Under the pieces are notes generated by a model, which was given only the letters and a program-made list of their open reading frames with translations, was not told the origin of the DNA and did not search any database. From contig CALKRK010000163.1 in the NCBI GenBank assembly GCA_937989675.1, forward strand, positions 1 to 43,934: a stretch of DNA of 43,934 nucleotides, in the 5' to 3' direction. Source of the stretch: an uncultured Arenicella sp. (GTDB lineage: Bacteria; Pseudomonadota; Gammaproteobacteria; Arenicellales; Arenicellaceae). Positions 4,701 to 28,144 of the stretch are shown in pieces. Positions within the stretch are counted from its first letter, which is position 1. Each line of letters begins with the position of its first letter. Position numbers and translations under genes: made by a program.

Positions 4701-4901
4701 GGGTACTAACACACTGGGCTCTAGCTGTTTAGCGGTTGTGCCCCGCACCTCCACCACCACTTGAATACGTGGTGGCGCAAAATCTGGAAAAATTTCTCGT
4801 TCAATGGTGAGCAAATGATAGCTGCCTAGCAGAATGATCACGACGGTCAACGCCGTTGCTGCAACCGAGTTCGCCAAAAAAGATTGGTACCACTGTTTCA
4901 T
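1719..4901 (-). CDS. RND-family efflux pump inner-membrane subunit
   Basis: 1060 residues, full length for the AcrB/MexB-type family. The first transmembrane helix is near residues 10-30. A long periplasmic porter loop (about 40-330) is followed by a helix bundle, and the pattern repeats in the second half. The proton-relay pair of transmembrane helix 4 is present as LVDDALIVGE near residue 400. The family exports drugs, detergents, bile-salt-like compounds or other hydrophobic molecules by proton antiport from the inner membrane and periplasm to an outer-membrane channel. Its ATG shares one base with the TAA of the membrane fusion protein (TAATG), so translation is coupled. It is the last gene of the operon. 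The substrate cannot be told from the sequence. Confidence 0.93.
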   Translation of the reverse strand: MKQWYQSFLANSVAATALTVVIILLGSYHLLTIEREIFPDFAPPRIQVVVEVRGTTAKQLEPSVLVPIERSVKGLKGVTRIESFARDGEAEVLIELDHNASVPELQGIIKSRVDSIDTFPEDLDTLVVQAEDRRSQVMRVNLVSDNQAQLPELSRLAKEILPAIEAIPSVGKVEIQGEPAQILEIEVSLATLKTYGLSFADIAEQVAAHNVDIDSGAILGRERDFRVVVNNQTSDATQIGQIPISIPGSTDTVLLGDIASIGQGYAQREPITRFEGVNAIGFSIFRVEPSNPTKVANDVRNKLDQLQQNLPTGFKLVTWLDESRELSSRTRLLSNNAMLGMILVFLSLALFVHWRVAMWVFIGLPVTYLGGLSLMGAPMFDLSINVVTLFGFLIVSGILVDDALIVGESIHNSVAKASSSTGSVMDSVYAGVERVAAPAIFGVLTTIAAFFPLTMLDGDLGHSLGAIATVIILCLLVSIFESKLLLPAHLYKSLSGKQATVHHSAGHLSSVGERLMNGLLDRYSRLLNRCLESPGQFISYGCAVLILTIGLVSSNTIKTIMIPEVADFELEAELQVPVGAAKDEVDSVVRSIEQAQRVTNEHFLAEYELDYDPTGYSYSVSESPTRVSIFTELNPRNDNPVKLGEYVATWRSHLPDLPMGYYFHLSSSAEPDEGINVQLEGNDQSVLIAASDELKGVLATYPGVTDVRDNMDSSRPENQVSLSDLAVNRGIALADVSHTLRDGLLGLEINKVQTQTGEVSLRLQYPEEERRDFNALMQMPYWVGEHESIPLGDLVEMKSTDSLGVIRRANGARVINIYASNDDSILSAEAVMDNLEDTYLGTLTERYDNLSYRIEGEAAEADETSASLVVAALLAIVSVYALLSLPLRSFKTPFLVLTVLPFGIAIIILAHGVFGLPISLPSLFGVIALTGVLVNDSLILVHQFTNGGELAMKAKSSELKERLRRACRNRFRPIVITSITTFCGIMPIMLETDPEAMWLVPIAISLGIGVLFGTFITLLLLPCLILVLGALPEAKKSPEGERDFFENSVATPDREALLPN

Positions 4902-6109
4902 TACAAAGACCCTGTATTCGCTGGTTCGGGTTCACTCGCGCTGAGTTGGTTCTCACCACCCTCGCTGCCCGGTTCAGCCGTAAAATCTGAATTTGAATTA
5001 ATGAGCGGCAACTGGTTGATCGGCATCAATGCCAGATAATCGGCACTGGTTTCAATGGTAACGACAGAATGCGAGTGCGTACGAGACAACACCTCCACAA
5101 GCATCGGTTCGGTTTCACCAGATTGAGAACGCACCGCAACGGTCTGGCCATCAATGTAATCGTTGCCCACGTGGAAAACAGTCTCAACAACCCCTAAATC
5201 AACCTTCATTGATAACAAAGAACCGGGCTTAAGCATCAAGTTCTCGTCATTGCGATTATTAGATACGCGCACAAGCGCCGATTGCGATTGTGTTTTAGGG
5301 TCGCGCACTTCGCCCCAACTCAGCACCTGAGCTTGTATCTCAACGAAATCACCACCGTCTATACTAACGCTAATGCTGGGTTTAACTGCTTTACCCCTTT
5401 GCTGCGCCATCCGTAAAACCTCTAAGTCTTTGCGCGACAACTGAGCCGTAATAAGCATTGAATCACCGGAGAAAATTTCAACTAAGGCCTGGCCATATTC
5501 GGCGAGATCACCAAAACCAACCGACCGCTCGCTTACATAAGCATCATAGGGTGCTTTTACCACCGTCATCGACAATCGTTGATACGCTGTTTTAACTTTG
5601 GCTTTAGCGGCGTCGACCTTTTTACTAGCCGCCTGCAATTGCGGCCCGCGCAGTGCCAAGGGGGATTGCGACGCCTCAGGCAACTCTGATAAATCTTCTC
5701 GAGCTTGCGACGCTAACGCATTCTCTCGTTCATATTGAAAAAGCGCATCGGCCAGCACTTGCTCGGCGGTCGCGAGCATTTCCCTATATTGAATATCGTC
5801 GATCTGTAGCAGCACATCGCCTTTTGAAAACCAAGCACCAGACTCTAAACCGGAAGCGACGTTTGTTACTCGACCGGTCACCTCTGACTTAATTAAGGTC
5901 TCTAACTCTGGCTTCACTTGCCCAAACAAGTTAAGTGAAAGCGAATAACTAGCCGAAGGTACATTAAGCGGCTCTTTTGTCACGGCCGCATCAGGAAACT
6001 CAAGTGGAATAGACTCGCTGTCAGGAGCAAGAAATTGCAGCGCGACAACAACAGCGCAAGCCGCCAACACAGGAATAACAATTTTTATTGGAATGGATTT
6101 GATAAACAC
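4901..6109 (-). CDS. RND efflux membrane fusion protein (periplasmic adaptor)
   Basis: 402 residues from the GTG at 6109. The frame stays open to 6166, but the GTG has a GAGG six bases before it and lies just past the stop of the upstream gene, and it puts a short basic and hydrophobic anchor at the N terminus (FIKSIPIKIVIPVLAAC). An LAAC in that segment could be a lipobox, but it is followed by hydrophobic residues, so a transmembrane anchor is equally likely. The lipoyl/barrel-sandwich half (EVTGRVTNVASGLESGAWF and KGDVLLQIDD) is near residues 70-110, followed by a helical hairpin (about 110-180) and a second half (VVKAPYDAYVSERSVGFGD). It bridges pump and outer-membrane channel. A Gly/Ser/Glu-rich tail of about 30 residues ends it. 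Confidence 0.9.
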   Translation of the reverse strand: MFIKSIPIKIVIPVLAACAVVVALQFLAPDSESIPLEFPDAAVTKEPLNVPSASYSLSLNLFGQVKPELETLIKSEVTGRVTNVASGLESGAWFSKGDVLLQIDDIQYREMLATAEQVLADALFQYERENALASQAREDLSELPEASQSPLALRGPQLQAASKKVDAAKAKVKTAYQRLSMTVVKAPYDAYVSERSVGFGDLAEYGQALVEIFSGDSMLITAQLSRKDLEVLRMAQQRGKAVKPSISVSIDGGDFVEIQAQVLSWGEVRDPKTQSQSALVRVSNNRNDENLMLKPGSLLSMKVDLGVVETVFHVGNDYIDGQTVAVRSQSGETEPMLVEVLSRTHSHSVVTIETSADYLALMPINQLPLINSNSDFTAEPGSEGGENQLSASEPEPANTGSL

Positions 6110-6117
6110 GTCGTACC

Positions 6118-7569
6118 TCAAATAGCGTGTGAAGCTGGTGCGGTAAGAGCCTGGATTGCAACCCAAGTCTCTAACTGTTTTTTACGTAAAGTGATAAGCG
6201 ATTGGCGCAATGTGTACACGGTTCTTTGTGCGTTCAACAAGGCTAAATAATCAAGCACTCCTCGCCGATACGCTGCCATCGAAGCGCCTTCCGCCTTTTG
6301 TGCGGCCAACAACGCTTCTTGCTGCGCTTGTATTTGGCCCTTAATAGTTTGGTTACGCTGCCAAGCCAGTGCCAGTTCATGAAACGACTCCAACAGCACT
6401 GACCGTAAGGCTAAGGCTGATTGATGCGCTTTGTCCTCACGCAAATCTTGATCCAAACGCAGACGGCCGCGCTGAAACAAGGGTAATGTCGCCTCTATAA
6501 GCATATTTTGAACATTAGCGCTGACCGCCAGTGATAGCGAACTATTGTTGCGCTCTCGGCCCAAAAAAGCGGAAAAGCTCAGACGAGGGAAACGCTGCCT
6601 GAACGCTTTTAAAGACTCAAAATCATTGCGCCGAACCTCAATCTGCGAGCGCAATGCTCTGGGTTGATTGAGCAACACATCAATAACGGGTTCGCTTAAC
6701 TCGGGTGGCGAAATGAACGCCACGTTTTCGGCCTCAAACGCTACGTCAAAGTTGGAAACGTAAACACCGAGCACCAATGATGTTTGCCGCTGGACTTCGT
6801 CTAACTTTTGCAGGCGATCCAAATATTCAGATTCCGCTTTCGCTGCTTCTGAGTGCGCACGGTCATAATCAATCTTTGCGGCTAAGCCCTTAACAACCAG
6901 CCCTCGGATCGTACGTTCGCTGGCTAGCAAAGATTGGTACAGCGATTTCGCTAGCTCAACTTGCTCCAAGCTCTCGGCCAGCGCGATGGCCTGATTCACC
7001 GCATCTAGGGCAATGCGCTCTCGTTCGATTTCATGCGAAAGTAGCGCCTGCTGAAGGTTTAGACCTTCAACTTTTTGAGCAATACCCTCCACACCAAAGA
7101 AGTCAGGCGACCAACTTAAGTCCAAACCTAAACTCGATTTAGTTGACGTGTCAGTCGGCGTGTTGGCCGCTTGGCCAACACGTTCACGGCGACTCGATCC
7201 CGCAATGGCTAACTGAGGGTAGCGTAACCATTTTGCTTGATGAGCCCGAGCTCGAGCACTGTCTAGTTCAATCAAGTTACTCGCAAGTTGAGGATTTGAA
7301 GTAAAGGCAGTTTTAACGAGCTGCAGCGTCGCTGGAGGCAAGCATTTACAGCTTAACCAACGCCCTCGACCCTCGGCATACTCGGAGAAGGAGTTTGAGA
7401 GTGCTTGTGCGAGCCGAGGATCGAGGGGTGGCTTAACGGGCTCATGCTCACCATCCAACGTTTGTGGTAAACGCACGGTATTGAGAGGCTTCGAAAACTG
7501 CTTGGGTGCAACGCAAGCGCTGCAAAATACGGCCAGCAATGAAAGCGCCGCAACTCGTGACAACTGCAT
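6118..7569 (-). CDS. TolC-type outer-membrane efflux lipoprotein
   Basis: 483 residues, typical of the NodT/OprM-type outer membrane factors. The signal peptide runs to a cysteine at SAC-VAPK near residue 19. The -3 position is Cys rather than Leu, so lipidation is probable but not certain. The body shows the two long helical repeats of the family, for example QLASNLIELDSARARAHQAK and LLNQPRALRSQIEVRRNDFE. It forms the trimeric channel through the outer membrane for the RND pump downstream. The gene lies between the MipA gene (15-base gap) and the adaptor gene; its TGA ends eight bases before the adaptor GTG, so the three efflux genes are one transcription unit. Confidence 0.9.
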   Translation of the reverse strand: MQLSRVAALSLLAVFCSACVAPKQFSKPLNTVRLPQTLDGEHEPVKPPLDPRLAQALSNSFSEYAEGRGRWLSCKCLPPATLQLVKTAFTSNPQLASNLIELDSARARAHQAKWLRYPQLAIAGSSRRERVGQAANTPTDTSTKSSLGLDLSWSPDFFGVEGIAQKVEGLNLQQALLSHEIERERIALDAVNQAIALAESLEQVELAKSLYQSLLASERTIRGLVVKGLAAKIDYDRAHSEAAKAESEYLDRLQKLDEVQRQTSLVLGVYVSNFDVAFEAENVAFISPPELSEPVIDVLLNQPRALRSQIEVRRNDFESLKAFRQRFPRLSFSAFLGRERNNSSLSLAVSANVQNMLIEATLPLFQRGRLRLDQDLREDKAHQSALALRSVLLESFHELALAWQRNQTIKGQIQAQQEALLAAQKAEGASMAAYRRGVLDYLALLNAQRTVYTLRQSLITLRKKQLETWVAIQALTAPASHAI

Positions 7570-7584
7570 ACATCAAACCCGCCC

Positions 7585-8550
7585 CTAGAAGTTATACCCG
7601 ATGCCAAACGCGACAAAGGTATCACTGCTCTTTTCTACGATCGGGCTATTGGTCACTTCGCTACCGTAGCTCGTGTGCTCAATCTGCAACAAAGAAAACC
7701 AGTTGTCTGAGAGCTGACCAACCAGACCCACTTCAATACTGGTATCGATGTCTGAGTCAGCGACATAGGCCGGCCGATTCTCTAATGCATACTGCGGTTT
7801 AACGCCGTAATAATAGTCGTTATATTTTTTATCGTTGTACGTGACACTGGCACCCACTTCTAAACTCCAGCGATCGGATAATTCGAACTCACGTCCAAAA
7901 CCAAGCTCCGCGATGGTGCCCTTATGAGAGCCGTTCGCGCTGGTATGTACACCGAGCGACAACTCATAATCACCAAATTCTTTTTCGATCGCCAGACCAA
8001 CGTTAATCGCGCCATCCAGTTCAGGCAAATCACTCAATGTTTTATTATCAACTGGGTCATAGCCCTCACCTAGAGCAAGATCAAAATCCAGTGAGACATC
8101 AGCCCAACCTTTGTAGAATCGATAACCGAACGAAGCACCCTGAAAATAGAGCGAGCCATTGTCGTACCAAATCAAAGGGTAGACTTGTGTTTCACTGACC
8201 CCGCCCGTATAAATTGAGTTATCTCCGAAGGCCGCCAATCCAACAATCAAAGTATTGTCATCAAACTCTTCTGAGTTAACTTCAATAATATTGCCGCTGG
8301 CATCAATTACCGCCTCGTAACCAAACTCGCCGAGTTTATAGTCAATTTCGTAGCGTTGTGAATCACCCCGCCCTTTAGTTTTGACATCGGTGATTACCGC
8401 TGTCGGAAATTCATCGTAAATGACACCACGAGCGATGTCTTCACTCCCCATCACTATGGTTGGTGCAAAAAAGACCCCGCCGGTTACCAACGTAGTTAGA
8501 GCTAAGTTAAACTTTCGATAGTAAGCTGACCTATTCACTTTCGTTTTCAT
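7585..8550 (-). CDS. MipA/OmpV-family outer-membrane protein with N-terminal PepSY-like segment
   Basis: 321 residues from the ATG at 8550, chosen because GAGGA lies eight bases upstream; the frame stays open to 8574 through a TTG. After a signal peptide (about residues 1-36) comes a PepSY-like segment (EFPTAVITDVK... to ASGNIIEV, about 45-95) that matches the neighbouring 86-residue protein in length and motif order. The rest is the MipA/OmpV barrel: AAFGDNSIYTGG, SLYFQGASFGYRFYKG and NDKKYNDYYYGV are family-type segments, and the protein ends in Phe as outer-membrane barrels do. MipA was named as a scaffold for murein enzymes in E. coli and has been linked to antibiotic sensing and efflux induction in Pseudomonas. 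Here it sits in the efflux operon, so a sensing role is an inference. Confidence 0.85.
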   Translation of the reverse strand: MKTKVNRSAYYRKFNLALTTLVTGGVFFAPTIVMGSEDIARGVIYDEFPTAVITDVKTKGRGDSQRYEIDYKLGEFGYEAVIDASGNIIEVNSEEFDDNTLIVGLAAFGDNSIYTGGVSETQVYPLIWYDNGSLYFQGASFGYRFYKGWADVSLDFDLALGEGYDPVDNKTLSDLPELDGAINVGLAIEKEFGDYELSLGVHTSANGSHKGTIAELGFGREFELSDRWSLEVGASVTYNDKKYNDYYYGVKPQYALENRPAYVADSDIDTSIEVGLVGQLSDNWFSLLQIEHTSYGSEVTNSPIVEKSSDTFVAFGIGYNF

Positions 8551-10330: not shown

Positions 10331-10873
10331 ATGAAAAACTATTCAGGATTTCAATCTAAAGAGCGCTTGGTTATTTCAACCTGCGTCACCATCCTTGGCG
10401 TCCTAACAATTTTTGACGTGATCGAAGACTTAGGCCAAGGCTCTCCTCTGTATAGCGTAATGGGGGATATCGGCTATATGTCGATCATGGGCGGCCTACT
10501 ATTCTACATATGGCGGCACCAACCGCTCACCACACGAATGCGCAACCAAGCTTTGACGGTAAAGCTTAAACGCCGACATACCGACGCACAAAAATGGCGA
10601 GCACGCGCTTCTACACTACTTCATGGGCTAGGAAAGGTCATTGACCAACAATTTCAGGATTGGCAACTTTCTAAGGCCGAACGCGAAGTAGCGCTCTTTC
10701 TACTAAAAGGGCTAAGCCTTAAAGAAATAGCCGCAATCAGGGAAAGTGGGGAACCCACTGTTAGGCAACAGGCGGCGAGTATCTACCAAAAAGCTCATGT
10801 TAGTGGCCGCGCGGAGCTGTCGGCGTTCTTTCTAGAAGACTTATTGCTGCCAAACAATTCTGAAAATAGCTAA
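10331..10873 (+). CDS. membrane-tethered LuxR-type transcriptional regulator
   Basis: 180 residues. Two hydrophobic segments near the N terminus (about 13-34, LVISTCVTILGVLTIFDVI, and about 43-62, GDIGYMSIMGGLLFYIW) look like a transmembrane hairpin. A basic linker (about 65-95) follows. The C-terminal about 65 residues are a GerE/LuxR helix-turn-helix: LSKAEREVALFLLKGLSLKE, then ESGEPTVRQQAASIYQKAHV and SGRAELSAFFLEDLL. There is no receiver or autoinducer domain, so the signal is probably sensed in or at the membrane. The phosphatase-like gene follows 33 bases later and is probably co-transcribed. A role in regulating the downstream G8 protein or the divergent GT9 gene is inference from position. 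Confidence 0.8.
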   Translation: MKNYSGFQSKERLVISTCVTILGVLTIFDVIEDLGQGSPLYSVMGDIGYMSIMGGLLFYIWRHQPLTTRMRNQALTVKLKRRHTDAQKWRARASTLLHGLGKVIDQQFQDWQLSKAEREVALFLLKGLSLKEIAAIRESGEPTVRQQAASIYQKAHVSGRAELSAFFLEDLLLPNNSENS

Positions 10874-10906
10874 ATCTAAGAGGCGTTTTGGTCAAACCAG
10901 TTGGCT

Positions 10907-11230
10907 ATGAATACTGATAACTTACTTTTCATTTGCAGCCGCAATCAATGGAGAAGCCCTACCGCTGAGCGAGTCTACTCGCAGAAGGGGTTTCGCGTTC
11001 GCTCAGCGGGCACGAGCCCTAATGCAAAACGCACAGTCACCGCCAAGGATATTAGCTGGGCCTCGCATATTTTTGTGATGGAGAAAAAGCATAAACAACG
11101 ACTGATCGCTAGGTTCACGCGTTTGGTTGAGCACAAGAAAATAGTCGTGCTGGACATACCCGATGAATACCAGTTTATGGACAAAGAACTAATCGAAGTT
11201 CTCGACGACTGTGTGACACCTTATCTGTAA
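10907..11230 (+). CDS. low-molecular-weight protein tyrosine phosphatase-like protein
   Basis: 107 residues from the ATG at 10907; the frame stays open to a TTG at 10901. The N terminus carries the family P-loop CX5R as FICSRNQWRSPTAE, with Cys near residue 10 and Arg near 16. It is followed by RSAGTSPNA and a late acidic segment (LDIPDEYQFMD) in the place of the catalytic Asp loop. At about 107 residues it is shorter than classical LMW-PTPs (about 150) and fits the short predicted-phosphatase group. Known relatives dephosphorylate phosphotyrosine, and some act on exopolysaccharide kinases, but no such kinase is in the window. It is probably co-transcribed with the LuxR-type gene. Confidence 0.78.
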   Translation: MNTDNLLFICSRNQWRSPTAERVYSQKGFRVRSAGTSPNAKRTVTAKDISWASHIFVMEKKHKQRLIARFTRLVEHKKIVVLDIPDEYQFMDKELIEVLDDCVTPYL

Positions 11231-11840
11231 CGTTGCAAAGCCTCCACACTCATCAATTCAGCGAACATAAGAAATCCACTCTTTTTGTCAACAATTAATT
11301 GTCAAACATTAAGTTGAAATGTAGAGTTGCTAGTGGTACCCCAAAAAGTACTTAACATCAGTACGTATAGATCGGTATTTTTTTCAAGACAAGGTCGAAA
11401 TACAACGATCGGTAGTGTTATGAGATATCGGTAAATGGCTGGAGTATTGAGGAGAGAGTAAACGTGTCAAGCCTAATAGTATTGACTCGCATTTTTGTGG
11501 TTATAACAATAAAAAAATATGAAATTATTGCTCAACCCTATTCTCTTCCAAGACGCCATTATCTTTGTTCATCGCGCGGCTTTCATTCTCGAAAAGTATA
11601 GACAGGGCCTTACTAATATGAAGAACCAAGCTAATTTTGTTTTACATGGCCCAACAACAAAAACCAACTACCTAAAATCCAGCCTTTTACGGAAAACATC
11701 AGCTGAAAATCTGTCTAGACAGGAGAAGGTAGAGTGTTTGTTTACCTGAACTGGGTTTCCGCCTACCCAGATATACCACCCGAAACCTACCGAGGTCTCT
11801 GGGGATGAATTCGTGCAAAACTTACTCTCAAAAAGGCATT
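11231..11840 (+). promoter_or_regulatory. long leader/intergenic region upstream of the G8 protein
   Basis: About 610 bases with no well-supported gene. It holds a possible promoter (TTGTCA at 11299-11304, 17-base spacer, TAGAGT at 11322-11327). ATCGGTA occurs three times on the same strand (11371-11377, 11408-11414, 11427-11433). There is a perfect 12-bp palindrome CTGTCTAGACAG (11711-11722) and a hairpin with six-base arms CTGGGT/ACCCAG (11751-11756 and 11765-11770), about 70 bases before the start of the large gene. A GAGGAGAG at 11449-11456 precedes a 45-codon ORF. The elements suggest regulated transcription or a structured leader. I could not match it to a known riboswitch. Confidence 0.35.
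11464..11601 (+). CDS. possible 45-residue small protein
   Basis: The frame starts with GTG about nine bases after GAGGAG, the best ribosome-binding sequence in this gap. It encodes 45 residues beginning MSSLIVLTRIFVVITIKKYE, a hydrophobic N-terminal half that could be one membrane helix, followed by a basic Arg/His/Ser-rich tail. No family is recognised. It could be a small membrane protein, a leader peptide or chance. A competing ATG frame at 11519-11749 has no ribosome-binding site. Confidence 0.22.
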   Translation: MSSLIVLTRIFVVITIKKYEIIAQPYSLPRRHYLCSSRGFHSRKV

Positions 11841-14800
11841 ATGAATATGAAAGCCTTCATCGTATCTTTTCTCATAGCAATCATTATCGGTGTCACAGGT
11901 ATTACCTACGCAAAAGTTTCAAAAGACAATGATGCCTGGAAACTAGTCAGTGTAGTAATGATGCTTCTTGAAGATAATAGCACTGCACCTTCAGATAGCG
12001 TCCAAATAAAATTATCAGGGTATCGTGATGCCGACGCCCAATCCGTCGACCTAGGCGCCCTGCTTGATGGGCAAGTATTAGACTTGCGAGATATCGGGGT
12101 TGATGAACTGGATTTAGAAATTATCCCACCCTTCGAAACAGACAATTTGATTCAGAGTGTTTCTCTGTCTTTATCCGGCCCCGAGATAGTAAGTAATATT
12201 GACAACACTCAGCCTTACACCTTATTCAACGAAAACAATCGTTTTGATCTCAGTGAAGAAGACTTGGCACCTGGAGAATACTCGCTAACCGTAGTCGGAT
12301 ATTCGGATCTGAATGCCGCAGGTTCAACTCAGTTTACCGAAATTATTCGGTTCAGTGTGATCGACACCACGCCAGATTCCTCGTTGCCAAACATTGATTC
12401 ATTGACTTTGGTGGAGCTGGATAGCAACACTCATAGAGAGGTCCAAAATGGGGACGATCTAGATCTATCAGACATCAGTTCTAGGCTAATTAATTTTCAG
12501 GCCAATCCATTGGATGAGCGTTTGGTGGAAAGCGTTCATTTTGCACTTACCGGTCCAATAGAGTTAGACAGAGCGGAGAACTTCGCTCCTTATTCTTTAA
12601 TTGCCGAAAACATCAACTTTGATTTAAGCAATAATGGATTGCCCGTTGGTCGCTATCAGTTGGTGATCACTCCTTACTCTCAAGATAACTTAGAAGGTAT
12701 TCAAGGGCCCTCTTATTCAATTTCGTTCAGTGTGAGCAAAAGCGATTCACCTCCACCGGTCGTACCTCAGATAGATGGAGTTGAATTGTTGGGTGAATCA
12801 GGTTCGGTGATCCAACGCATTGTTGAAGGAACATCAATAGACTTGAGGCCTCTGTCAGATAACACACTTAGTTTCAAAGCACTGCCCACCGCTAACAGCG
12901 GCACCCTCAGTATTGCTTTTGAACTTGATGGGCCAAGCAATCACAATGAAACACTCAATTCTCCTGAGTTTAGTTCCGCGAGCATCGATATCGGCCCAGG
13001 TGGGCTCGTTCCAGGAAGCTACAATCTATCACTTATCCCCTACTCGGAGCTAGACGCCCAAGGCCAGTCAGGCACAACGGTTAGCATCTCATTTTCGGTA
13101 ACACGTTCAGACGACAATAGCCCTTCACCAGAAGCCTGGTCGAACCCCAGTACGTGGGGTGGCACCCTACCGGCCGAGGGTGACGACGTTACGATTGAGT
13201 CTGGCCGAGAAATTTTTCTAGACATTACCCCACCTAAGCTAGGCAGTTTATCGATATCAGGTAAGCTCAATTTCGCCAATAAAACCTTGAATTTAACGGC
13301 TGAAAACATTCTTGTGCATTCCAGTGGTGAGTTTAATATTGGGTCTATGTCTGAACCATTTGCACATAAGGCCACTATTACAATCACTGGTGGCATTGGG
13401 TCTAACCCGGAAGCGCGAGGCATCATGGTTCACAACGGGGGTGTTATCACCATGATCGGGCAGCCCCCAGAGGCATGGGTGAAATTAAATCGCAATGCGG
13501 CCAAAAACAGTTCTACACTGACGCTCAATTCAACGGTAGATTGGTCTGTTGGAGATAAAGTCATCGTCACGCCCACCGACTTTTACAATCGAGCCAAGAC
13601 TGAGCTACATCACCTTGCAAGCGTATCTGGAACGCAAATTGGTCTCTCTAGCGGTTTGCAAGCGTCACGCTGGGGTGTTTTGCAATATGTCAGTGATAGT
13701 GGCATGTCGCTCGACAGTAGCGATCAAATTTCGGACGCGAGTTCGGCACCTAAGGTGCTCGATGAGCGTGCGGAAGTTGCTAATCTGACACGTAATATTG
13801 TAATCCAGGGCGCAAATGACGACCTATGGCAGACCCAAGGTTTTGGTGTGCACATGATGGTGATGGGAGCAAACTCAAACATCACACTTGATGGTGTGGA
13901 GTTTAATCGAGCCGGGCAAGCTGGCCGGCTAGGGCGTTACCCGATACACTTTCATCGCATCAATTACCCGGATGGAGTTAATTACCTACCCAGCGTGGGT
14001 ACCAAGATCATCCGAAACTCTTCGATTTGGAATTCAAGCAACCGTTGCATCACCATTCACGCTACCAATGACGTAACTTTTGATAATAATATTTGTTACG
14101 ACATAAAAGGGCATGCTGTGTTCTTGGAAGACGCAGTTGAACGAGATAATGTCATTACCAACAACCTAGTTGCTAATGTCGCCACGCCCATACGTGAAAA
14201 TGCGCTGATTGGGTCCGATAAGACATCTGGGTTTGGTGGGTCATCCTGTTATTGGATCACTAATCCCGATAATACAATCATGGGTAACGTAGCCGCAGAC
14301 TGCGCTTTTATTGGTTTTTGGATGGCATTTCCCGAGCGAGCATTGAATGTTAGCTCTGCCGTAAACACCACACCGATTCATATTCCCCTGAAGCGCTTTG
14401 AAAACAATGTGGCTCACTCTGTTGGAGAAAGTGGTTTTCACTGGGATCACCCTCCAGTGAATGCCGATGGCGGTGTTTCACCAAGACTTTATGAGCCGTT
14501 TGTTGGTGAGAAAAAGGAGTCAAATGCCACTTTGGCACTCTCTCACATAAGCGGTAACCTATCCTACAAAAACCGGGCCTGCGTTTGGAACCGGCTACGT
14601 GGCGCGAGGTTTTCATCGGCGGTCAATGCGGATTGTATTGGTAAAACGTTTGCAGGTGGGTCCTACGATTCTCGCATTCAGAACACCCTTATTGTGGCGC
14701 AGAGCTTAAACAATGGAACAAGCTGGCGCGATATAGACAATCAATCCCCCCCCACTGCCATCGCCAGTTACCACAGTCAGTTCGTCATTACCGATAACAC

Positions 14801-15803
14801 CGTCGTAGGCTTCCAAGCCCACCCTGCTCCGCTATTTCGTACTAATATCGGTGGCACACAACACACTCTAGGCTGCATGCTTGGAACAGATGACTACTAT
14901 ATCCGCGCGCTTGAAGTTGGCACATACAACATTAGCAACAATCGCTTGATTGATTCTTGCTTTGCGCAAAGAACGCAAGTACCTAATGGCAATAGCCACT
15001 ACACCTTAGCTGGTGCCCTGTGGGATCCACACGGTTCGCTAGGCCCAGAAGATCAATATTGGGTTTATGACCAACCATTTTTCACCCACGGGCAAAACTG
15101 TACTCAAGTCGACGCAAGCGGCACCAACGGTGTCTCGTGCCCGGGCCCATTTTATGGTGTTGAAAATTATTTTGGTCATGACATTCGCATCTCAGGCCGC
15201 AACACGCGAGGGTTAAATGTTACTCGCTACGATGATAATCAAAACGAAGTTGGCACGTGGTCTGTTAAGGATGGTTTAACCGGGGATGGCTTCTTCACGA
15301 TCATGCGCCATTTCGCGGCGAAAAATGGTGGCCGTTACTCGATAGACTTTTTTGACGATGTTAACGGCAGCGAGGTCTCCTTTTACCCAACTCGAGACTT
15401 AGTCTTTAGTCTCACAAATTTTTATCGTGATACTGACAGTGTATTAATTGGTCTCAATTTTTCAGGACAAGACCAGGCGCGTATGTACGTTAATGCATTC
15501 TATAACCACGACAATGCTTGCTGCGGAGCAAACGTAAATACAATGATCCATGATGCGGTGATCTTGAACTCTTTCTCCGAGGTTGAAAATGCGGCTCAGA
15601 CCTCAATTTATCAAGACAAAGACAACAATCGGGTATGGCTAAAAATATTCAGTCCATCACATGCTTTTAAACCACCGATAGACTATTTAAACGCTCGTGT
15701 AGACGACCTCAGTTACGATTCTCATATACGCGTGTTTACCTGTGAAGGTGCTGTTGCCGATGGCGCGTCAGGCAGAGATTTGAGGTTAAGGCAGTGTAAT
15801 TGA
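11841..15803 (+). CDS. large secreted G8-domain/beta-helix protein, CEMIP/TMEM2-like
   Basis: 1320 residues from the ATG at 11841, which has AAAAAGG four bases upstream and opens a clean signal peptide (MNMKAFIVSFLIAIIIGVTG, cut after TYA). The frame is open to an ATG at 11805 that would spoil the signal. Three tandem beta-sandwich-like repeats follow at about 53-175, 181-303 and 307-428, each ending in a GxY-L-x2-YS...FSV pattern. A G8 domain is at about 432-560 (AWSNPSTWGGTLPAEGDDV, LSISGKLNF, FNIGSMSEPF). A right-handed beta-helix region then contains GRYPIHFH (698-705), NRCITIHATNDV, GHAVFLEDAVERDN and CAFIGFWMAFPE (about 820). These are the hallmark segments of animal CEMIP and TMEM2, which depolymerise or bind hyaluronan. 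The substrate here is unknown; an extracellular glycan is an inference. Confidence 0.82.
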   Translation: MNMKAFIVSFLIAIIIGVTGITYAKVSKDNDAWKLVSVVMMLLEDNSTAPSDSVQIKLSGYRDADAQSVDLGALLDGQVLDLRDIGVDELDLEIIPPFETDNLIQSVSLSLSGPEIVSNIDNTQPYTLFNENNRFDLSEEDLAPGEYSLTVVGYSDLNAAGSTQFTEIIRFSVIDTTPDSSLPNIDSLTLVELDSNTHREVQNGDDLDLSDISSRLINFQANPLDERLVESVHFALTGPIELDRAENFAPYSLIAENINFDLSNNGLPVGRYQLVITPYSQDNLEGIQGPSYSISFSVSKSDSPPPVVPQIDGVELLGESGSVIQRIVEGTSIDLRPLSDNTLSFKALPTANSGTLSIAFELDGPSNHNETLNSPEFSSASIDIGPGGLVPGSYNLSLIPYSELDAQGQSGTTVSISFSVTRSDDNSPSPEAWSNPSTWGGTLPAEGDDVTIESGREIFLDITPPKLGSLSISGKLNFANKTLNLTAENILVHSSGEFNIGSMSEPFAHKATITITGGIGSNPEARGIMVHNGGVITMIGQPPEAWVKLNRNAAKNSSTLTLNSTVDWSVGDKVIVTPTDFYNRAKTELHHLASVSGTQIGLSSGLQASRWGVLQYVSDSGMSLDSSDQISDASSAPKVLDERAEVANLTRNIVIQGANDDLWQTQGFGVHMMVMGANSNITLDGVEFNRAGQAGRLGRYPIHFHRINYPDGVNYLPSVGTKIIRNSSIWNSSNRCITIHATNDVTFDNNICYDIKGHAVFLEDAVERDNVITNNLVANVATPIRENALIGSDKTSGFGGSSCYWITNPDNTIMGNVAADCAFIGFWMAFPERALNVSSAVNTTPIHIPLKRFENNVAHSVGESGFHWDHPPVNADGGVSPRLYEPFVGEKKESNATLALSHISGNLSYKNRACVWNRLRGARFSSAVNADCIGKTFAGGSYDSRIQNTLIVAQSLNNGTSWRDIDNQSPPTAIASYHSQFVITDNTVVGFQAHPAPLFRTNIGGTQHTLGCMLGTDDYYIRALEVGTYNISNNRLIDSCFAQRTQVPNGNSHYTLAGALWDPHGSLGPEDQYWVYDQPFFTHGQNCTQVDASGTNGVSCPGPFYGVENYFGHDIRISGRNTRGLNVTRYDDNQNEVGTWSVKDGLTGDGFFTIMRHFAAKNGGRYSIDFFDDVNGSEVSFYPTRDLVFSLTNFYRDTDSVLIGLNFSGQDQARMYVNAFYNHDNACCGANVNTMIHDAVILNSFSEVENAAQTSIYQDKDNNRVWLKIFSPSHAFKPPIDYLNARVDDLSYDSHIRVFTCEGAVADGASGRDLRLRQCN

Positions 15804-18863: not shown

Positions 18864-20741
18864 CTAGCGATAGTCGATCTCAGTGCGCACGATATCTACT
18901 TTATCTGTTAGCTTGAATTGAATGAATTCGATATCTTTTAACGTGGCAAGCATTTTCGGTTCAATTGAGTAAAGCCTTGGCACTAAGTAATCGTAATTAT
19001 CTTCACTGGACTTAAACTCTTCAACGTCCATTTTGACTTCGCGGTAATCGATACCATTCTCGGATACCGTAAATACCAAGCTTGGTTTTTCCGATGATTC
19101 ATAAGCAAATAGCCGAAAGGCCTTCAGTTTTCCAGGAATGGTGTAAGAGCCTTGATGCCCTTTTTCACCACTGATTCTGGAAAAAGCCTCTTTGTAAGAA
19201 CGATAATCGCCGCTCTTTATTGTGAGCCCAGAATGGGAGTCTAGCGTCATTAAGTGTCGTGCGTAATCGACTCGTGTAAGATATTCAACGGTAAATGGCC
19301 CCACTGTGTTCGATGGCTCCGATGGCCCAGCCTCGTTTAATGCGACAACCCGATAATAATAGTCATCTCCGATCTTTGCGCTCTCGTCGCTAAAAAGATC
19401 AAATCCAGGTGTATCAACATCATCAATATTGTGAGCAACCACTTTCCATTGACCATCTTCACTCGTGCTACGTTGAATGTCATAACCGCTGGCACCTGCA
19501 GATCCTTGCCAAGAGAACTTTGGTGCTGCAGTAAACGCCAATAACGTAGGTGCTTTAGGGGCCGATATAGGAGGCACCGACTTACCTTGGAACTCAAATG
19601 CTTTTTCACGAAACATGGATAGAAAGTTTCGCTCGTCGTACAGCACCCCATCATCAAAACCTGGCCAATGATAAGCTCGATAGATACCGTGACCAAAGGG
19701 CTCTGTATGTTGATAAAAACCACCTGCAGGATGATGCCGGCGCAAGCTCCAGGCAAGCGCACCGGGTATGGCTTCTTCATCGATCAGGTAATCTATCACT
19801 CGCTCCATTCCGGCCGTGCCAATAAAACCAAACTCACCTAGCAACAGTGGTTTCTTGCCATCAACCATTTTGACCGTAGCTTTCAAGTTATTCACCATAT
19901 CTTTGGAATTGAGTTCGTAATGGTGCGTGCTTATAACATCGATAGCAGGCTCATCAATGGAGTATTGTTGAACAAATATGTGATGGTCCACGCCATGAAT
20001 TGCAAAGAAACCGTCTATAAATAAATGATTTTCATCAATACTTTTTACATAACGCGCGATTTCAATACCCCATTCCGGCGGGTTCTCTAACTCATTGCCA
20101 CTCTCCCAAGCGAATATGGTTTTATCATCTTTATATTTAACTCCGGTGATCGTATTCGTGCGATTTAAGACAAAGTCGATTGTCTTTTTAAAGTCATCAA
20201 TAAGCTGCCGGTCAGTCCAAAATTCGTTTTCAGATTTACCACGAAAGTCCGCATAGTTTGGTCTTCCACCCATCCACTGCCAATTATTAACCAGCGGAAT
20301 AATGACACGAATATCGTATTCGGCAGCAAGTGCTAAGGCTTTATCTAAGGCCTTGAACGCCTCTTCGTTAAACTCACCTGGCCCTTCAACGTAAGTAACC
20401 GACTCTCTAGGAAAATTTTTATTGCGAACTGGGATTGTATAAGTACGGACAACCCGCCCACCCATGCGTTTAACTGTTTCGTATAAATCTCTCAACTCAA
20501 ACTCAGACGGCAAAGCGTATGGGTTTGTCTGCTCAAAGCTCATATTATCTTCGACATAGTTCAACGTGGGCACATTGAACGAGAGGAAGCGAAACTCCTT
20601 ATCGCCATCCATAAACTTACTGCCTTGAGTTGTAATAAAGTGCTCTGGTTCAGCACTTACAGGCGCAGGTAAGTGCGCTATGATTGAAAACCATATTAAA
20701 AAGGTTAAACCCGAACGGGCTCTAAGCTTAAGTTTAAACAT
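18864..20741 (-). CDS. secreted GH5-like glycoside hydrolase, putative beta-mannanase
   Basis: 625 residues. A signal peptide covers about 1-30 (cut after VSA). A GH-A clan TIM barrel runs from about 35 to 390. The acid/base Glu is E217 in AWESGNELEN and the nucleophile is E303 in LLLGEFGF, both in the expected order and spacing. NTITGVKYKDDKTIFAW and STHHY are also family-like. A fibronectin-III-like domain follows (about 400-480, SGYDIQRSTSEDGQWKVVA), then a C-terminal about 140-residue beta-rich domain that may bind carbohydrate. The assignment to mannan comes from the GH130 and epimerase genes of the same operon, not from this sequence alone. It is the last intact gene of the operon, 56 bases after the repressor. 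Confidence 0.8.
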   Translation of the reverse strand: MFKLKLRARSGLTFLIWFSIIAHLPAPVSAEPEHFITTQGSKFMDGDKEFRFLSFNVPTLNYVEDNMSFEQTNPYALPSEFELRDLYETVKRMGGRVVRTYTIPVRNKNFPRESVTYVEGPGEFNEEAFKALDKALALAAEYDIRVIIPLVNNWQWMGGRPNYADFRGKSENEFWTDRQLIDDFKKTIDFVLNRTNTITGVKYKDDKTIFAWESGNELENPPEWGIEIARYVKSIDENHLFIDGFFAIHGVDHHIFVQQYSIDEPAIDVISTHHYELNSKDMVNNLKATVKMVDGKKPLLLGEFGFIGTAGMERVIDYLIDEEAIPGALAWSLRRHHPAGGFYQHTEPFGHGIYRAYHWPGFDDGVLYDERNFLSMFREKAFEFQGKSVPPISAPKAPTLLAFTAAPKFSWQGSAGASGYDIQRSTSEDGQWKVVAHNIDDVDTPGFDLFSDESAKIGDDYYYRVVALNEAGPSEPSNTVGPFTVEYLTRVDYARHLMTLDSHSGLTIKSGDYRSYKEAFSRISGEKGHQGSYTIPGKLKAFRLFAYESSEKPSLVFTVSENGIDYREVKMDVEEFKSSEDNYDYLVPRLYSIEPKMLATLKDIEFIQFKLTDKVDIVRTEIDYR

Positions 20742-20797
20742 GGTATTGTGCCTCTATGTATTATTGTTAAGGCGAGCAATACCGTATCTACATTGGC

Positions 20798-21787
20798 CTA
20801 TGTTAACGAACGAACACTTTCGCGCACGATGAATTCATAAGGCAATACAAAGCGATTTTGTGGTAGCTCACCATCTTCAATGAGTGTAATTAGTTGTTTA
20901 GCCGCCATGCGGCCAATTTCCATTGCAGGCTGATCAATGGTAGTGAGTGGCGGGTCTGTGTATTTTGAGTACTCTATGTTGTCAAAGCCAGCGACCGAAA
21001 TATCTTCAGGCACTCGAACGCCATTGGATTTCAATGTTTGCATAGCGGCGATCGCCATATCATCGTTCATACAGAACAATGCTGTTGGCTTCTCATCCAT
21101 CATTAGAACTTGGTTGGCCGCCATTTGGCCTGAGGCCATAGTAAATTCACCTTCAATCACCAAACTCTTATCAAATTCGATGCCCGCCTCCTCCAAACTT
21201 TGACGATAGCCTCTAAGCCTATCCATCGTATGTCGATTATCTCGCAAGCCACTTATTACTCCTATGCGCCTATGGCCTTGCGAAATCAAATAGTCAGTAA
21301 CCGTTTTTGCAGCTTCAGTGTTATCTATACGAACGGATGGATATGGTGTGCCTTCGCAGCCCGCAGCGCCTACAATTGGTAAATGATCAGGCACTAGAGA
21401 TTCCTCAGGGGAGTAAGGAGTAAGTTGGATAACACCATCTGCCTGCTTCGAGTTAATCAAGTCTAGATAGATACGCTCGTTTTGGACCTCGTCGCGTGTA
21501 TCACCTAATAGCACCGAATAGCCTCGCTTTTGCGCATAATCTTCGAGCCCCCGTATCAACGTTGCAAAAAACGGGTTGGCTAAGTTCGGAACTAATACCA
21601 ATAATTTATAAGAACGCGTTGAACGAAAATTATGCGCCATCATATTAGGGCGATATTCGTACGTCTCCATCGCTTCAATGACTTTTTGTCTTGTCTTTTC
21701 ACTCACCTTATCAGGGTGACGCAAAGATCGAGACACCGTCGCAATTGAAACACCGGCTATTTTTGCAATTTCACGAATATTAGTCAT
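20798..21787 (-). CDS. LacI-family transcriptional repressor
   Basis: 329 residues. The N-terminal helix-turn-helix is classical (MTNIREIAKIAGVSIATVSR with the hinge segment YRPNMMAHNFRS). A periplasmic-binding-protein-like sensor domain follows (about 60-329), with FFATLIRGLEDYAQKRGY, SVAGFDNIEYS and PPLTTIDQPAMEIGRMAA. Family members bind a short CG-centred palindrome and release it on binding a sugar. Three identical copies of such a palindrome (TGTAACCGGTTACA) precede the locus's symporter, AGE and receptor genes, so this is the likely regulator of all three. No copy precedes the repressor gene itself, which lies inside the operon between the two GH5-like genes. The inducer is probably a mannan-derived sugar. 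Confidence 0.9.
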   Translation of the reverse strand: MTNIREIAKIAGVSIATVSRSLRHPDKVSEKTRQKVIEAMETYEYRPNMMAHNFRSTRSYKLLVLVPNLANPFFATLIRGLEDYAQKRGYSVLLGDTRDEVQNERIYLDLINSKQADGVIQLTPYSPEESLVPDHLPIVGAAGCEGTPYPSVRIDNTEAAKTVTDYLISQGHRRIGVISGLRDNRHTMDRLRGYRQSLEEAGIEFDKSLVIEGEFTMASGQMAANQVLMMDEKPTALFCMNDDMAIAAMQTLKSNGVRVPEDISVAGFDNIEYSKYTDPPLTTIDQPAMEIGRMAAKQLITLIEDGELPQNRFVLPYEFIVRESVRSLT

Positions 21788-21893
21788 AGTTTTCTCACAA
21801 CCGAATTAGTGTCAGCTGATCGTTAATCATATTGTTCAACACTTATTCGATTATCCAGAATTTATCCGCGCTTGCCAGTTGAATATTGGTAAA

Positions 21894-23480
21894 TCAATCT
21901 TTTGCACTTTCAGGGCTATACATCTCAATATTTGACGCAGCTGACTCTCCGCTTTCGTTGCTCGCGAAAACACGGTAAAAATACGACTTCCCCTCTTCAA
22001 GGTTGTTGTCAGAAAACAGCCGTCCATCAATAGGGTGAAAGCGATTTTTACCATCCGACACATTATCAATGATGGTTTGCCATGGGCCCGTTAAGGCTTC
22101 AGCACGCTCGACGCGATAGTAACGCCCGACAGGAGCACCCATCCAGCGGATATTAGAAGCGTCTTTAATCGGTCGTAAAATAGGTGCCTCAGGAACTGGT
22201 AGCGGCGGAGCTTTTTCTAGGCCATTCATTCTTGCTTGGGCGTTCCTCACAATATCGACGACAACCTGCTCTTCATTGTGATCACCTTCGGGAAAGCCTG
22301 GGAGGTGATAACTGTAATACCCCTTGTCACCTTCCGCATGCCAATAGAAACCACCGTTGTGACGATGCCCCCTAAAGCCCCAAATTAGCCCACCAACCGC
22401 ACGAGCGCCATCTACCTCGGTATCAACAACCGCGTGCATGATTTCTTGTAATTGATTAGCTGGTAATAAACCGAACTCACCGACCAAGTAGGCTTTTTTC
22501 CCTGCGATGAAACGAAGGTCTTTCTCAATGGTCTCAGGTTTATTATTCCCAACTTCAATGTAAAAGTGATTACTTATGATATCCACGTTGGGATCATCTA
22601 TCGAAGATGGCAATAGATTGACATAAGTACCATCAACCACTAACTGCTTCGGCGCATTGCGCTTAATATGAGCGGCTGTGCGAGCGACGAACTCTGGCGT
22701 ACTACCGACTAATTCGTTACCTGTTTCCCAGGCCAGTATCGCTTTTTCCTGATTATAATAACGGCCCGTCAGCGTGTTCTTTCGATTAGTTACCTGCTCA
22801 ATAATACTCAAATAGGCGGCATAAGATTTGCTATTCAGATCATATAGAGCGTCTTCGCTCTCACCGTAGAAAGCAGCGAGATCTTTGCGGCCTCCCCACC
22901 AACGCCAATGATCCACAAACGGCAAAATTAGGCGCAAGCCGTGTTGACCCGCCAGCGCGATCATCCGGTCATAATGTACAAAGGCTTGTTCATTGAGAAC
23001 TGGCAAGCCGCTTTCAGAGCTAGGTTTCAGAATATGTGTCTCACGGCCACACAAGTGATCGTTCGCTGCCTCAATCGACAACACGTAAACGCGCATGGCT
23101 TTGGTACCCGCTCGCACGTGTGCTTTGATCCAATTTTCTTGCTCCTGTGCGGTGGGCCATTTAAAGTAATTTCCCTGAGGCTCGCCGTTGTGAGAACAGG
23201 TGCCCATCGCATCTTGCTCGATACGATGTAGCTCTGGAGCATGAATTCCAGCAAATCGAAACTCTTTGCCGCCATCCATAAGCTTGTGCTGATCGCGCGT
23301 AACAAAATGTTCAAAGCGACTTTCTTTAGGACCGTTGATGTCGATTAAAGCACTTTGACTATGTTCATTCTTATGCTCACATGCAGCACCAAACACAACA
23401 ATCATTAGCGCCATAATACAACGATAAGAGCCATATATTGAGAACCTAGTTTGCTTTGTCATTACCCTGCTTTTATGCAT
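21894..23480 (-). CDS. GH5-like glycoside hydrolase lipoprotein, putative beta-mannanase
   Basis: 528 residues from the ATG at 23480. The frame is open to 23540, overlapping the upstream gene, and another ATG is at 23462. The hydrophobic stretch IMALMIVVFGAAC has a lipobox (FGAAC), so the enzyme is probably a lipoprotein at the cell surface or periplasm. The TIM barrel shows acid/base E256 in AWETGNEL and nucleophile E335 in LVGEFGLL, with SNHFYIEVG between them. The C-terminal about 100 residues are fibronectin-III-like (RYYRVERAEALTGPWQTI). It is a diverged relative of the other GH5-like protein of this operon; the two share KLMDGGKEFRF/KFMDGDKEFRF starts. It could trim oligosaccharides made by the secreted enzyme. 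Confidence 0.8.
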   Translation of the reverse strand: MHKSRVMTKQTRFSIYGSYRCIMALMIVVFGAACEHKNEHSQSALIDINGPKESRFEHFVTRDQHKLMDGGKEFRFAGIHAPELHRIEQDAMGTCSHNGEPQGNYFKWPTAQEQENWIKAHVRAGTKAMRVYVLSIEAANDHLCGRETHILKPSSESGLPVLNEQAFVHYDRMIALAGQHGLRLILPFVDHWRWWGGRKDLAAFYGESEDALYDLNSKSYAAYLSIIEQVTNRKNTLTGRYYNQEKAILAWETGNELVGSTPEFVARTAAHIKRNAPKQLVVDGTYVNLLPSSIDDPNVDIISNHFYIEVGNNKPETIEKDLRFIAGKKAYLVGEFGLLPANQLQEIMHAVVDTEVDGARAVGGLIWGFRGHRHNGGFYWHAEGDKGYYSYHLPGFPEGDHNEEQVVVDIVRNAQARMNGLEKAPPLPVPEAPILRPIKDASNIRWMGAPVGRYYRVERAEALTGPWQTIIDNVSDGKNRFHPIDGRLFSDNNLEEGKSYFYRVFASNESGESAASNIEMYSPESAKD

Positions 23481-23511
23481 AAATATCTGCCCGCGTTTAA
23501 CAATTTTACGT

Positions 23512-24783: not shown

Positions 24784-25961
24784 TCGCTAGAGGCCCTTGC
24801 TTGTTTGTTACTTTCAATTAGACGGTTGATCGTTTGTACACTCGCAGCCGACCGCAAACCATCTTCAGGAGTATTGATAACATAATCCACCAGTTGCGAA
24901 ATAGAGGTAGTAGCAACGTGCAAACGAGTATCAGAAGAAGCATAATAGATAAACACTTCATCATCTTCGTTGTGTATCCAGCCGTTAGAAAAGACAACAT
25001 TTGAGACATCACCAACACGCTCTGACTGTATTGGTGCGATAAAGTGGCCGCCTGGCCGATGTGTCACCAACCACGGCTTGTCTAAGTCAGTTGCAAATAA
25101 ATACAACACATACCTTAATCCAGCTGCTGTATTGCGAACACCATGAGCTAAATGAATCCAACCAACGTCGGTTTTAATCGGCACTGGCCCCTGACCATTT
25201 TTAACTTCTTTTATCGTGTGGTACTCCTTTGAATCAACAATAACTTCTTCGTTTATTACCGCATTAGCAATTTCCTTGCAGGTGCCAAAACCAATTCCGC
25301 CACCGCCACCAACGTCTATGAAACCGTCTTGCGGGCGAGTATATAAAGCATACTCACCATCAATAAAATACGGATGCAGCACCACATTACGTTGCTGGCC
25401 ACTGTTGCTCGTGAGGTCTGGCAAGCGCTCCCAACTAACAAAGTCTATGGTTCTAGCTATTCCACAGTTTGCAATCGCGGCGGAACTGTCATTAGTCCTA
25501 CTATGGTCTTTACGCTCAGTGCAAAACAAGCCATAGATATAGCCATCTTCGTGCTGCGTTAAACGCATGTCGTATACGTTGACATCAGGCTCATCGGTTT
25601 CCGGAATAGTCATAGGCGTATCCCAGAAACTGAAATTATCGATTCCGTTCGGGCTCTCAGCGACCGCGAAATATGATTTTCGATCTGCTCCCTCAACGCG
25701 CACAACTACAATATAACGGCCTTCCCAATGCATGGCGCCCGCATTAAACGCCGCGTTCGGCGCTATGCGTTCCATAAGAAACGGATTTGTTTTCGGGTTG
25801 AGGTCGTACCGCCAATGCAACGGAATATGATCCGCGGTCAATATCGGATTATTCCAACGTGTGTAGATGCCGTTACCCAGTTTTTCGGGGCTATTTTTCA
25901 TCGCCAGAAGCGCATTATGGTGGCTTTCAAGCTTACTTAATCTTTCATTAAAGAGTGTCAT
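24780..25961 (-). CDS. 4-O-beta-mannosyl-glucose phosphorylase (GH130)
   Basis: 393 residues, the usual length of GH130 subfamily 1. Signature segments are NPKTNPFLMERIAPNAAFNA, VVRVEGADRKSYFAVAESPN, GIDNFSFWDTP and YTRPQDGFIDVGGGGGIG. The expected proton donor is Asp131 in NVYDMRLTQ, the same residue number as in the Bacteroides fragilis enzyme. The enzyme splits mannosyl-beta-1,4-glucose with inorganic phosphate into alpha-mannose-1-phosphate and glucose in the cytoplasm. It lies between the SSS symporter gene (67-base gap) and the 2-epimerase gene (four-base overlap), which reconstructs the known mannobiose pathway. It is one of the most confident functional calls in the window. Confidence 0.92.
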   Translation of the reverse strand: MTLFNERLSKLESHHNALLAMKNSPEKLGNGIYTRWNNPILTADHIPLHWRYDLNPKTNPFLMERIAPNAAFNAGAMHWEGRYIVVVRVEGADRKSYFAVAESPNGIDNFSFWDTPMTIPETDEPDVNVYDMRLTQHEDGYIYGLFCTERKDHSRTNDSSAAIANCGIARTIDFVSWERLPDLTSNSGQQRNVVLHPYFIDGEYALYTRPQDGFIDVGGGGGIGFGTCKEIANAVINEEVIVDSKEYHTIKEVKNGQGPVPIKTDVGWIHLAHGVRNTAAGLRYVLYLFATDLDKPWLVTHRPGGHFIAPIQSERVGDVSNVVFSNGWIHNEDDEVFIYYASSDTRLHVATTSISQLVDYVINTPEDGLRSAASVQTINRLIESNKQARASSE

Positions 25962-28119: not shown

Positions 28120-28144
28120 TAAAATACTTCAAAAATTAACTTCT

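Follow-up and report, generated by a model that had tools for sequence, protein, structure and literature searches.

A bacterial G8/CEMIP-type beta-helix protein of an uncultured Arenicella and its candidate active site

The G8/CEMIP-type gene and its product

The window, that is, the whole stretch of DNA analysed here, comprises 43,934 nucleotides of contig CALKRK010000163.1 of an uncultured Arenicella sp. (assembly GCA_937989675.1). It carries on its forward strand an uninterrupted open reading frame (ORF), from an ATG at 11841 to a stop at 15803, the product of which, a protein of 1,320 amino acids called P0001, belongs to the G8/CEMIP beta-helix superfamily and shares with the animal protein TMEM2 (CEMIP2) a core in which a conserved set of histidines and glutamates is the likely active site. 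An alternative in-frame ATG is found at 11805. The start at 11841 is favoured because a Shine-Dalgarno-like sequence precedes it and a signal-peptide-like stretch, recognised by eye, opens directly from it. The gene and its protein are laid out as follows.

11830-11836 (+): Shine-Dalgarno-like AAAAAGG ahead of the start codon (sequence)
11841-15803 (+): G8/CEMIP-type beta-helix protein P0001, 1,320 amino acids (ORF translation, Pfam)
11841-11912 (+): signal-peptide-like N-terminus, residues 1-24 (judged by eye, no predictor)
11994-12362 (+): N-terminal repeat 1, residues 52-174 (repeat comparison)
12384-12746 (+): N-terminal repeat 2, residues 182-302 (repeat comparison)
12759-13112 (+): N-terminal repeat 3, residues 307-424 (repeat comparison)
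13152-13490 (+): G8 domain, residues 438-550, first turns of the beta-helix (Pfam PF10162, E 1.6e-27)
13839-14438 (+): CEMIP-type beta-helix, residues 667-866 (Pfam PF24606, E 2.7e-59)
13932-13955 (+): GRYPIHFH, residues 698-705, with the proposed metal ligands H703 and H705, equivalent to TMEM2 H550 and H552 (conservation; PMC11043200, in part, for H552)
14040-14075 (+): NRCITIHATNDV, residues 734-745, with the proposed metal ligand H740, equivalent to TMEM2 H585 (alignment, conservation)
14109-14150 (+): GHAVFLEDAVERDN, residues 757-770, with E763 and E767, equivalent to TMEM2 E608 and E612, proposed as ligand or acid-base (alignment, conservation)
14313-14336 (+): GFWMAFPE, residues 825-832, a conserved helix turn (alignment, conservation)
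14601-15650 (+): end of the beta-helix and domain X-like part, about residues 921-1270, with D931, Y977 and D1062 (profile alignment, conservation)

Both Pfam assignments stand far above the curated cut-offs, with 96.3 bits against 22.9 for G8 and 200.9 bits against 27.3 for the CEMIP beta-helix, the latter covering positions 1-212 of the 212 of the model. A preliminary description of this DNA, made from its letters, had placed a G8 domain at about residues 432-560, in good agreement with the Pfam boundaries. To the C-terminal part of about 400 residues Pfam gives no family, and none of the NCBIfam models matches P0001.

The same description had seen three extra domains ahead of the core. Indeed, the three repeats match each other by phmmer with E-values of about 1e-7 to 2e-12, against about 0.02 for the best of 5,000 shuffled sequences. 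Their only Pfam match is sub-threshold (Ig_J, E 0.19), a profile search of the PDB with them was empty, and single-sequence folding gave an unusable model with a predicted local distance difference test (pLDDT) of 33.8; thus, no fold is claimed for them. Outside the window gene, the repeat was found in one of 60 related genomes, preceding a DUF5060 domain. Among the ORFs of loci L001-L111, some of which are truncated by contig ends, a repeat model matched only the window-gene copies, the next E-value being 4.2. Repeats of such sort often go along with secreted glycan-active enzymes.

Homology with TMEM2 and spread of the core

A single-sequence phmmer search of the PDB retrieved TMEM2 (8c6i) with an E-value of 4e-28, the next match standing at 0.35, which puts the homology far past chance. 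A family profile was built from 55 sequences (that of the window, 51 ORFs of a genome scan and three of viral contigs, these 54 being taken from 83 eligible ORFs). It matches 8c6i with an E-value of 9.8e-165 over both the G8 domain (chain residues 48-166) and chain residues 339-1055, so the homology runs through the helix into domain X. The AlphaFold2 model of residues 419-1320 has a mean pLDDT of 87.5 and a predicted TM-score (pTM) of 0.88, and its best PDB match by Foldseek is again TMEM2 8c6i (E 1.7e-37, TMq 0.67, TMt 0.49, root-mean-square deviation (rmsd) 6.3). The second match, the beta-helix capsule lyase of Klebsiella K1, follows 28 orders of magnitude behind (E 4e-9); later rows hold phage tailspikes and depolymerases and glycoside hydrolases, and the BFVD matches are likewise tailspikes and depolymerases. 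The two points on which the preliminary description had proposed to be judged, a CEMIP/TMEM2 match over residues 600-850 and a right-handed beta-helix fold, have thus come out in its favour, the first strongly by Pfam, phmmer and the family profile, the second through this structural match.

Common to P0001 and the TMEM2 ectodomain (PDB 8C6I) are a continuous G8 domain, right-handed beta-helix and domain X; published statements are cited here from parts of the papers concerned, and in one of them Niu et al. describe the TMEM2 G8 domain as part of the continuous helix (PMC10206443). The four motifs that had been said to follow the CEMIP/TMEM2 order (residues 698-705, 734-745, 757-770 and 825-832) do so in the alignment to TMEM2. 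Eleven TMEM2 residues, R482, Q541, R546, Y547, H550, H552, H585, E608, E612, W666 and D803, have identical equivalents in P0001. By contrast, the signal-peptide-like start and the three N-terminal repeats are features of P0001, and the stretch from E767 to W805 is shorter, with 38 residues where TMEM2 has 54 (range 31-64 across the 55 profile rows). Among other proteins, the likeness to CEMIP (KIAA1199) does not come from direct comparison. PKHD1L1 and fibrocystin, set apart by description, are unlike P0001 in being giant IPT-domain membrane proteins (PMC13424714 for fibrocystin), although PMC11043200 treats PKHD1L1 His2479 as the equivalent of TMEM2 His552, which is H705 in P0001. The K1 lyase 7w1c and the phi297 tailspike 4ru5 have the right-handed beta-helix in common with P0001 in general terms, with about 10% identity, E-values of 4e-9 or worse and TM-scores below about 0.3.

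Both lectin-like domains of TMEM2, the helix insert (domain 1) and the C-terminal one (domain 2), are absent from P0001. Between profile positions 129 and 137, the 172 residues of 8c6i chain 167-338 find no counterpart; with the numbering offset applied, they are TMEM2 249-420, corresponding to lectin-like domain 1 with its small beta-sandwich, and include R265, D273 and D286. The profile match stops at chain residue 1055 of 1301 and P0001 has 50 residues past 1270, which leaves lectin-like domain 2 missing as well. According to Niu et al., lectin-like domain 1 is where all the substitutions reported to inactivate TMEM2 (R265C, D273N and D286N) are located (PMC10206443). P0001 therefore stands outside the animal CEMIP/TMEM2 hyaluronidase subfamily as defined by its lectin-like domains: of the proposal that it is a homologue of the hyaluronidase core, the core holds, whereas the label "hyaluronidase" does not follow. 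The absence of lectin-like domain 1 likewise ruled out concluding, from analogy alone, that P0001 is a hyaluronan lyase.

The bacterial family is broad, patchy and, as far as our searches show, apparently unstudied; it is not unique to the window, and the existence of a bacterial homologue is in itself neither new nor rare. The window gene has one copy in its own genome, which is about 80% complete. Counting that genome, PF24606 is present in 4 of 61 near-relative genomes and in 7 of 369 across the class, and a protein search at phylum level gave 3 of 398. Three of 17 congeners have it with scores of only 39-41 bits, against 205. One of 14 control genomes, that of Deinobacterium chartae, also has it. 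The scan of a named genome collection returned 312 relatives, the best 80 of which (79 distinct loci) were retained for follow-up; their titles include Chloroflexota, Gemmatimonadota, Deinococcota, Actinomycetota, Acidobacteriota, Bacteroidota, Myxococcota, Pseudomonadota and others. Plasmid records gave six matches, four of them already labelled "G8 domain-containing protein". Such bacterial proteins with the same core include WP_089418387.1 of Vitreoscilla filiformis and WP_053833714.1 of Croceibacterium atlanticum. The C-terminal part of P0001 is also matched by the Vitreoscilla protein (to residue 1268) and by those of L028-L038 (to 1268-1304, and to 1143 for L035). In alignment A6, made of P0001 and 39 relatives, three of them viral, G8 and CEMIP_beta-hel occur together in all 40 members. 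The open-access literature, searched by titles and abstract beginnings, held no paper on bacterial or phage CEMIP-type proteins.

Some loci stand out in other respects. Nine of them (L064, L070, L073, L074, L080, L089, L091, L094 and L104) hold more than one G8/CEMIP ORF. The G8 gene of L064, titled as a Klebsiella pneumoniae metagenome-assembled genome (MAG), groups in the tree with that of the Gammaproteobacteria MAG L068, perhaps through an error of labelling or binning. A distant G8/CEMIP protein encoded at L009:145-3366 (-) bears a long acidic N-terminal stretch rich in Asp, Glu, Gly and Ser.

Relatives spanning the whole core are also found on three IMG/VR contigs, L107, L108 and L109. 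A first viral scan with a single sequence gave no match; the alignment-based scan gave four loci, and a later one recovered three of the same contigs. The remaining locus, L110, is a fragment at a contig edge and is not counted as a phage gene. By PHROGs, the neighbours of the relative are a head-tail adaptor and a major head protein in L107, a terminase and a portal in L108, and a major head protein, a tail spike and a head closure protein in L109. None of the three relatives is itself matched by a PHROGs family with a known function; that of L108 has one match to a family of unknown function (E 0.008). All 13 checked residues are kept in the three proteins, which differ from P0001 in that the core starts almost at once, no signal peptide is evident by eye and the setting is a virion module. 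This setting is particular to L107-L109, since the neighbours of the window gene scanned with Pfam include no phage structural gene. Virion-borne beta-helices are often depolymerases. The viral relatives support the cleavage or binding of glycans as an old role of the core, on the strength of three contigs only. The L107 and L108 proteins have an additional stretch inside the helix; in the former protein, encoded at locus positions 4938-7985, residues 212-286 resemble short segments of phage proteins, annotated as tail in Rhizobium phage and as tail-fibre in Leptospira phage.

In a tree of 58 rows, P0001 stands with 12 bacterial and three viral rows on one side of a branch with a support of 100, TMEM2 lying outside. 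The same split has a support of 84 in a tree of 62 rows, in which TMEM2 met one of two long rows, L008 and L009; both of these and the two Croceibacterium rows were dropped from the 58-row tree, for which a stricter column filter was used. The two trees disagree on the viral rows, which one sets beside the 13 bacterial rows and the other among them.

Candidate active site and function

Conservation was measured over 123 distinct ORFs, taken from the window and the retrieved loci, with a few overlaps such as that of L008 and L011; 115 of them extend over the motifs. All 115 have H740 and E763. H703 and H705 are found in 114, and the exception, L009, does hold GRYPIHFH, so that its gap looks like a misalignment. 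E767 is kept in 112 of the 115, W805 in 114 and R699 in 110; R643 (107/111) and Q693 (106/114) are nearly as constant, and D931, Y977 and D1062 are each invariant (107/107). The first five, H703, H705, H740, E763 and E767, correspond to TMEM2 H550, H552, H585, E608 and E612, with a numbering offset verified on Cys940 and Cys554. In the strand register of the model, read from strands 285-287, 319-322 and 340-344 of the folded piece, H705, H740 and E763 occupy matching places of successive turns, H703 being two residues ahead of H705. This residue set was obtained independently of the published description of nickel at His552 in TMEM2 8C6I, a site that "might mediate catalytic functions" (PMC11043200). 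Judging from the sequences, the His-x-His, His, Glu and Glu set on the helix is thus the likely active site, and its members are candidate residues; as a feature of the subfamily the set is proposed in the present analysis, the published record concerning His552 only.

The reading that we favour, and regard as fairly probable, takes P0001, as a member of the G8/CEMIP beta-helix superfamily, to be a secreted depolymerase that depends on a metal and acts on a polysaccharide, probably other than hyaluronan. The G8 and PF24606 regions would form one long right-handed beta-helix, followed by the part equivalent to TMEM2 domain X. H703, H705, H740 and E763, predicted on or just past the strands of consecutive turns, with E767 close behind, would hold a metal ion near R643, Q693, R699, Y700, W805 and D931. 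This site would cut a polysaccharide outside the cell, and the three N-terminal repeats may act as spacers or binding modules. We infer the secretion, catalysis and substrate of P0001, as well as, by analogy, its ligation of a metal.

Several points weigh against this reading. The clustering of the His/Glu set in space follows from the strand register of the model, not from distances. The weak same-genus relatives L003-L006 keep H703, H705, H740, E763 and E767 but not R643 and Q693. The nickel of TMEM2 may come from purification, as Niu et al. used a HisTrap column (PMC10206443); in the part of their paper cited here, they could not assign the TMEM2 active site and left its location open. The activity of TMEM2 is itself disputed (PMC10206443, PMC10474455), and the literature searched, by titles and abstract beginnings, held no enzyme assay of a bacterial member. 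The structural matches listed after TMEM2 are weak, with Foldseek TM-scores of about 0.1-0.2 and rmsd values mostly of 15-24 Å. Clustering of the ORFs of L026-L110 gave 13 clusters present in at least three loci, including the G8 gene itself and some antisense ORFs, and none of the nine scanned with Pfam is carbohydrate-active. Finally, at the sensitivity used, the core was found in none of 50,697 phage records, in which P0001 and the L109 protein were unmatched and the L107 protein had short matches only, within its extra stretch.

P0001 could instead be a non-catalytic glycan-binding protein of the surface or matrix, with a structural metal site and a helix that works as a lectin-like scaffold. 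One study detected no hyaluronidase activity of the TMEM2 ectodomain (PMC10206443, in part), and the three extra N-terminal domains of P0001 recall an adhesin. Among the 40 members of A6, one has an S-layer homology domain and two have PA14. Nevertheless, conservation of charged and polar residues across such divergent proteins exceeds the apparent needs of a scaffold, and the structural matches listed after TMEM2, though weak, are largely capsule lyases, tailspikes and glycoside hydrolases. This explanation is accordingly judged unlikely, while being the best placed of the alternatives.

A redox metalloenzyme, the histidines of which would bind copper or iron and break the polymer oxidatively with periplasmic electron carriers feeding it, is a slim prospect. 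It would fit the cytochrome c genes near the G8 gene in the Pseudomonadota and Acidobacteriota relatives L083, L084, L096 and L100, the pyrroloquinoline quinone (PQQ) dehydrogenases in L070, L089 and L091, the PSD/PSCyt protein of L086 and the Cu/Zn superoxide dismutase of L091. A sub-threshold cupredoxin-like stretch also stands ahead of G8 at L028:4104-4589 (E 1.2e-4), and a cytochrome c maturation cluster is found a few genes away from the gene of the Vitreoscilla relative, a member of the clade of the window gene. A CxxCH motif occurs in 10 of the 192 ORFs that are at most two ORFs away from the G8 gene and in 2 of 246 more distant ones (Fisher p 0.007), a p-value that is soft given related loci and mechanical ORF calling. 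Of the ten near ones, however, that of L068 is a transposase, that at L070:10007-10525 is without a Pfam match and that of L078 is outside the Pfam scan. None comes from the clade of the window gene, for which 7 of 11 genome loci were usable, with neighbours lacking a Pfam scan, and the trees took in only L091 and L100 among the loci with redox neighbours. Moreover, Pfam identifies no redox gene among the neighbours of the window gene itself, and the reported TMEM2 activity is calcium dependent (PMC11043200, citing Yamamoto 2017).

A true bacterial hyaluronidase, acting on hyaluronan as CEMIP and TMEM2 do, is improbable to the same degree. The core and all candidate active-site residues are common to P0001 and TMEM2, and a tree in which TMEM2 is constrained beside the clade of the window gene together with the phages is not rejected (approximately unbiased (AU) test, p 0.64) and lies 7.6 log units above the free quick tree. 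Conversely, TMEM2 constrained with the bacterial rows of that clade, phages excluded, is rejected (AU p 1e-4), the nearest rows of TMEM2 by path are in the other clade in both trees, P0001 lacks the lectin-like domain 1 that bears R265, D273 and D286 (PMC10206443), and many relatives come from Chloroflexota, Gemmatimonadota and other groups presumably unlikely to meet hyaluronan.

A wider proposal can be made tentatively, with a little less than even confidence. The CEMIP/TMEM2 fold would have begun as a bacterial and phage metal-dependent polysaccharide depolymerase, its catalytic centre being the HxH/H/E/E set (TMEM2 H550, H552, H585, E608 and E612) on the helix and not the lectin-like domain that bears the known TMEM2 mutations; phages would use the core as a virion tailspike, and animals would later have added lectin-like inserts, by which it is directed to hyaluronan. 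Whether TMEM2 itself cuts hyaluronan, and by which residues, is disputed, three papers of 2023 disagreeing according to PMC12254123 (in part), and, were the proposal true, this disputed activity could be approached on a lectin-free bacterial core. Such a core, which keeps the helix residues of TMEM2, and its virion-module relatives narrow the candidate active site to a few named residues, and the bacterial protein is perhaps more readily produced for work on them. A candidate deafness variant, His2479Gln of PKHD1L1, affects this site as well; it was found in a deaf patient, for whom the authors caution that a MYO7A variant may be the cause instead (PMC11043200). The novelty of the present analysis lies in the virion-module relatives and in the case that conservation makes for the active site.

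Genomic neighbourhood

The LuxR regulator and the phosphatase-like gene noted upstream by the preliminary description are both present, the match of the second being partial.

10331-10873: LuxR-type gene (GerE, E 3e-5)
10901-11230: short gene with a partial low-molecular-weight phosphatase match (E 1.8e-5)

A gap of about 600 base pairs separates these genes from the G8 gene, so an operon with them is not established. Downstream of the G8 gene, Pfam recognises a MerC-type gene and an amidohydrolase gene. Promoter and terminator scans showed no excess over shuffled sequences (14 versus 13.3 and 8 versus 9.1, respectively). A conserved operon or sugar-utilisation locus around the G8 gene was considered and rejected, as there is no carbohydrate-active shared neighbour among the Pfam-scanned clusters.

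Three other groups of genes, all on the reverse strand, are recognisable in the window. A mannan-type utilisation locus (18864-32758) includes a weak GH5-like enzyme (E 6e-4), a LacI regulator, a GH130 phosphorylase, a 548-residue protein without Pfam match, two genes of the N-acetylglucosamine (GlcNAc) 2-epimerase family, an SSF symporter and a TonB receptor. It is not joined to the G8 gene, as it lies on the opposite strand, beyond two unrelated genes. At 34485-42655, a penicillin-binding protein with a BiPBP_C domain adjoins a bacterial alpha-2-macroglobulin of 1,999 amino acids. The third group, at 1719-7569, is a tripartite resistance-nodulation-division (RND) efflux set made of an AcrB-type pump, an HlyD-type adaptor and an outer membrane channel, adjoined by an AraC-type regulator at 739-1509.

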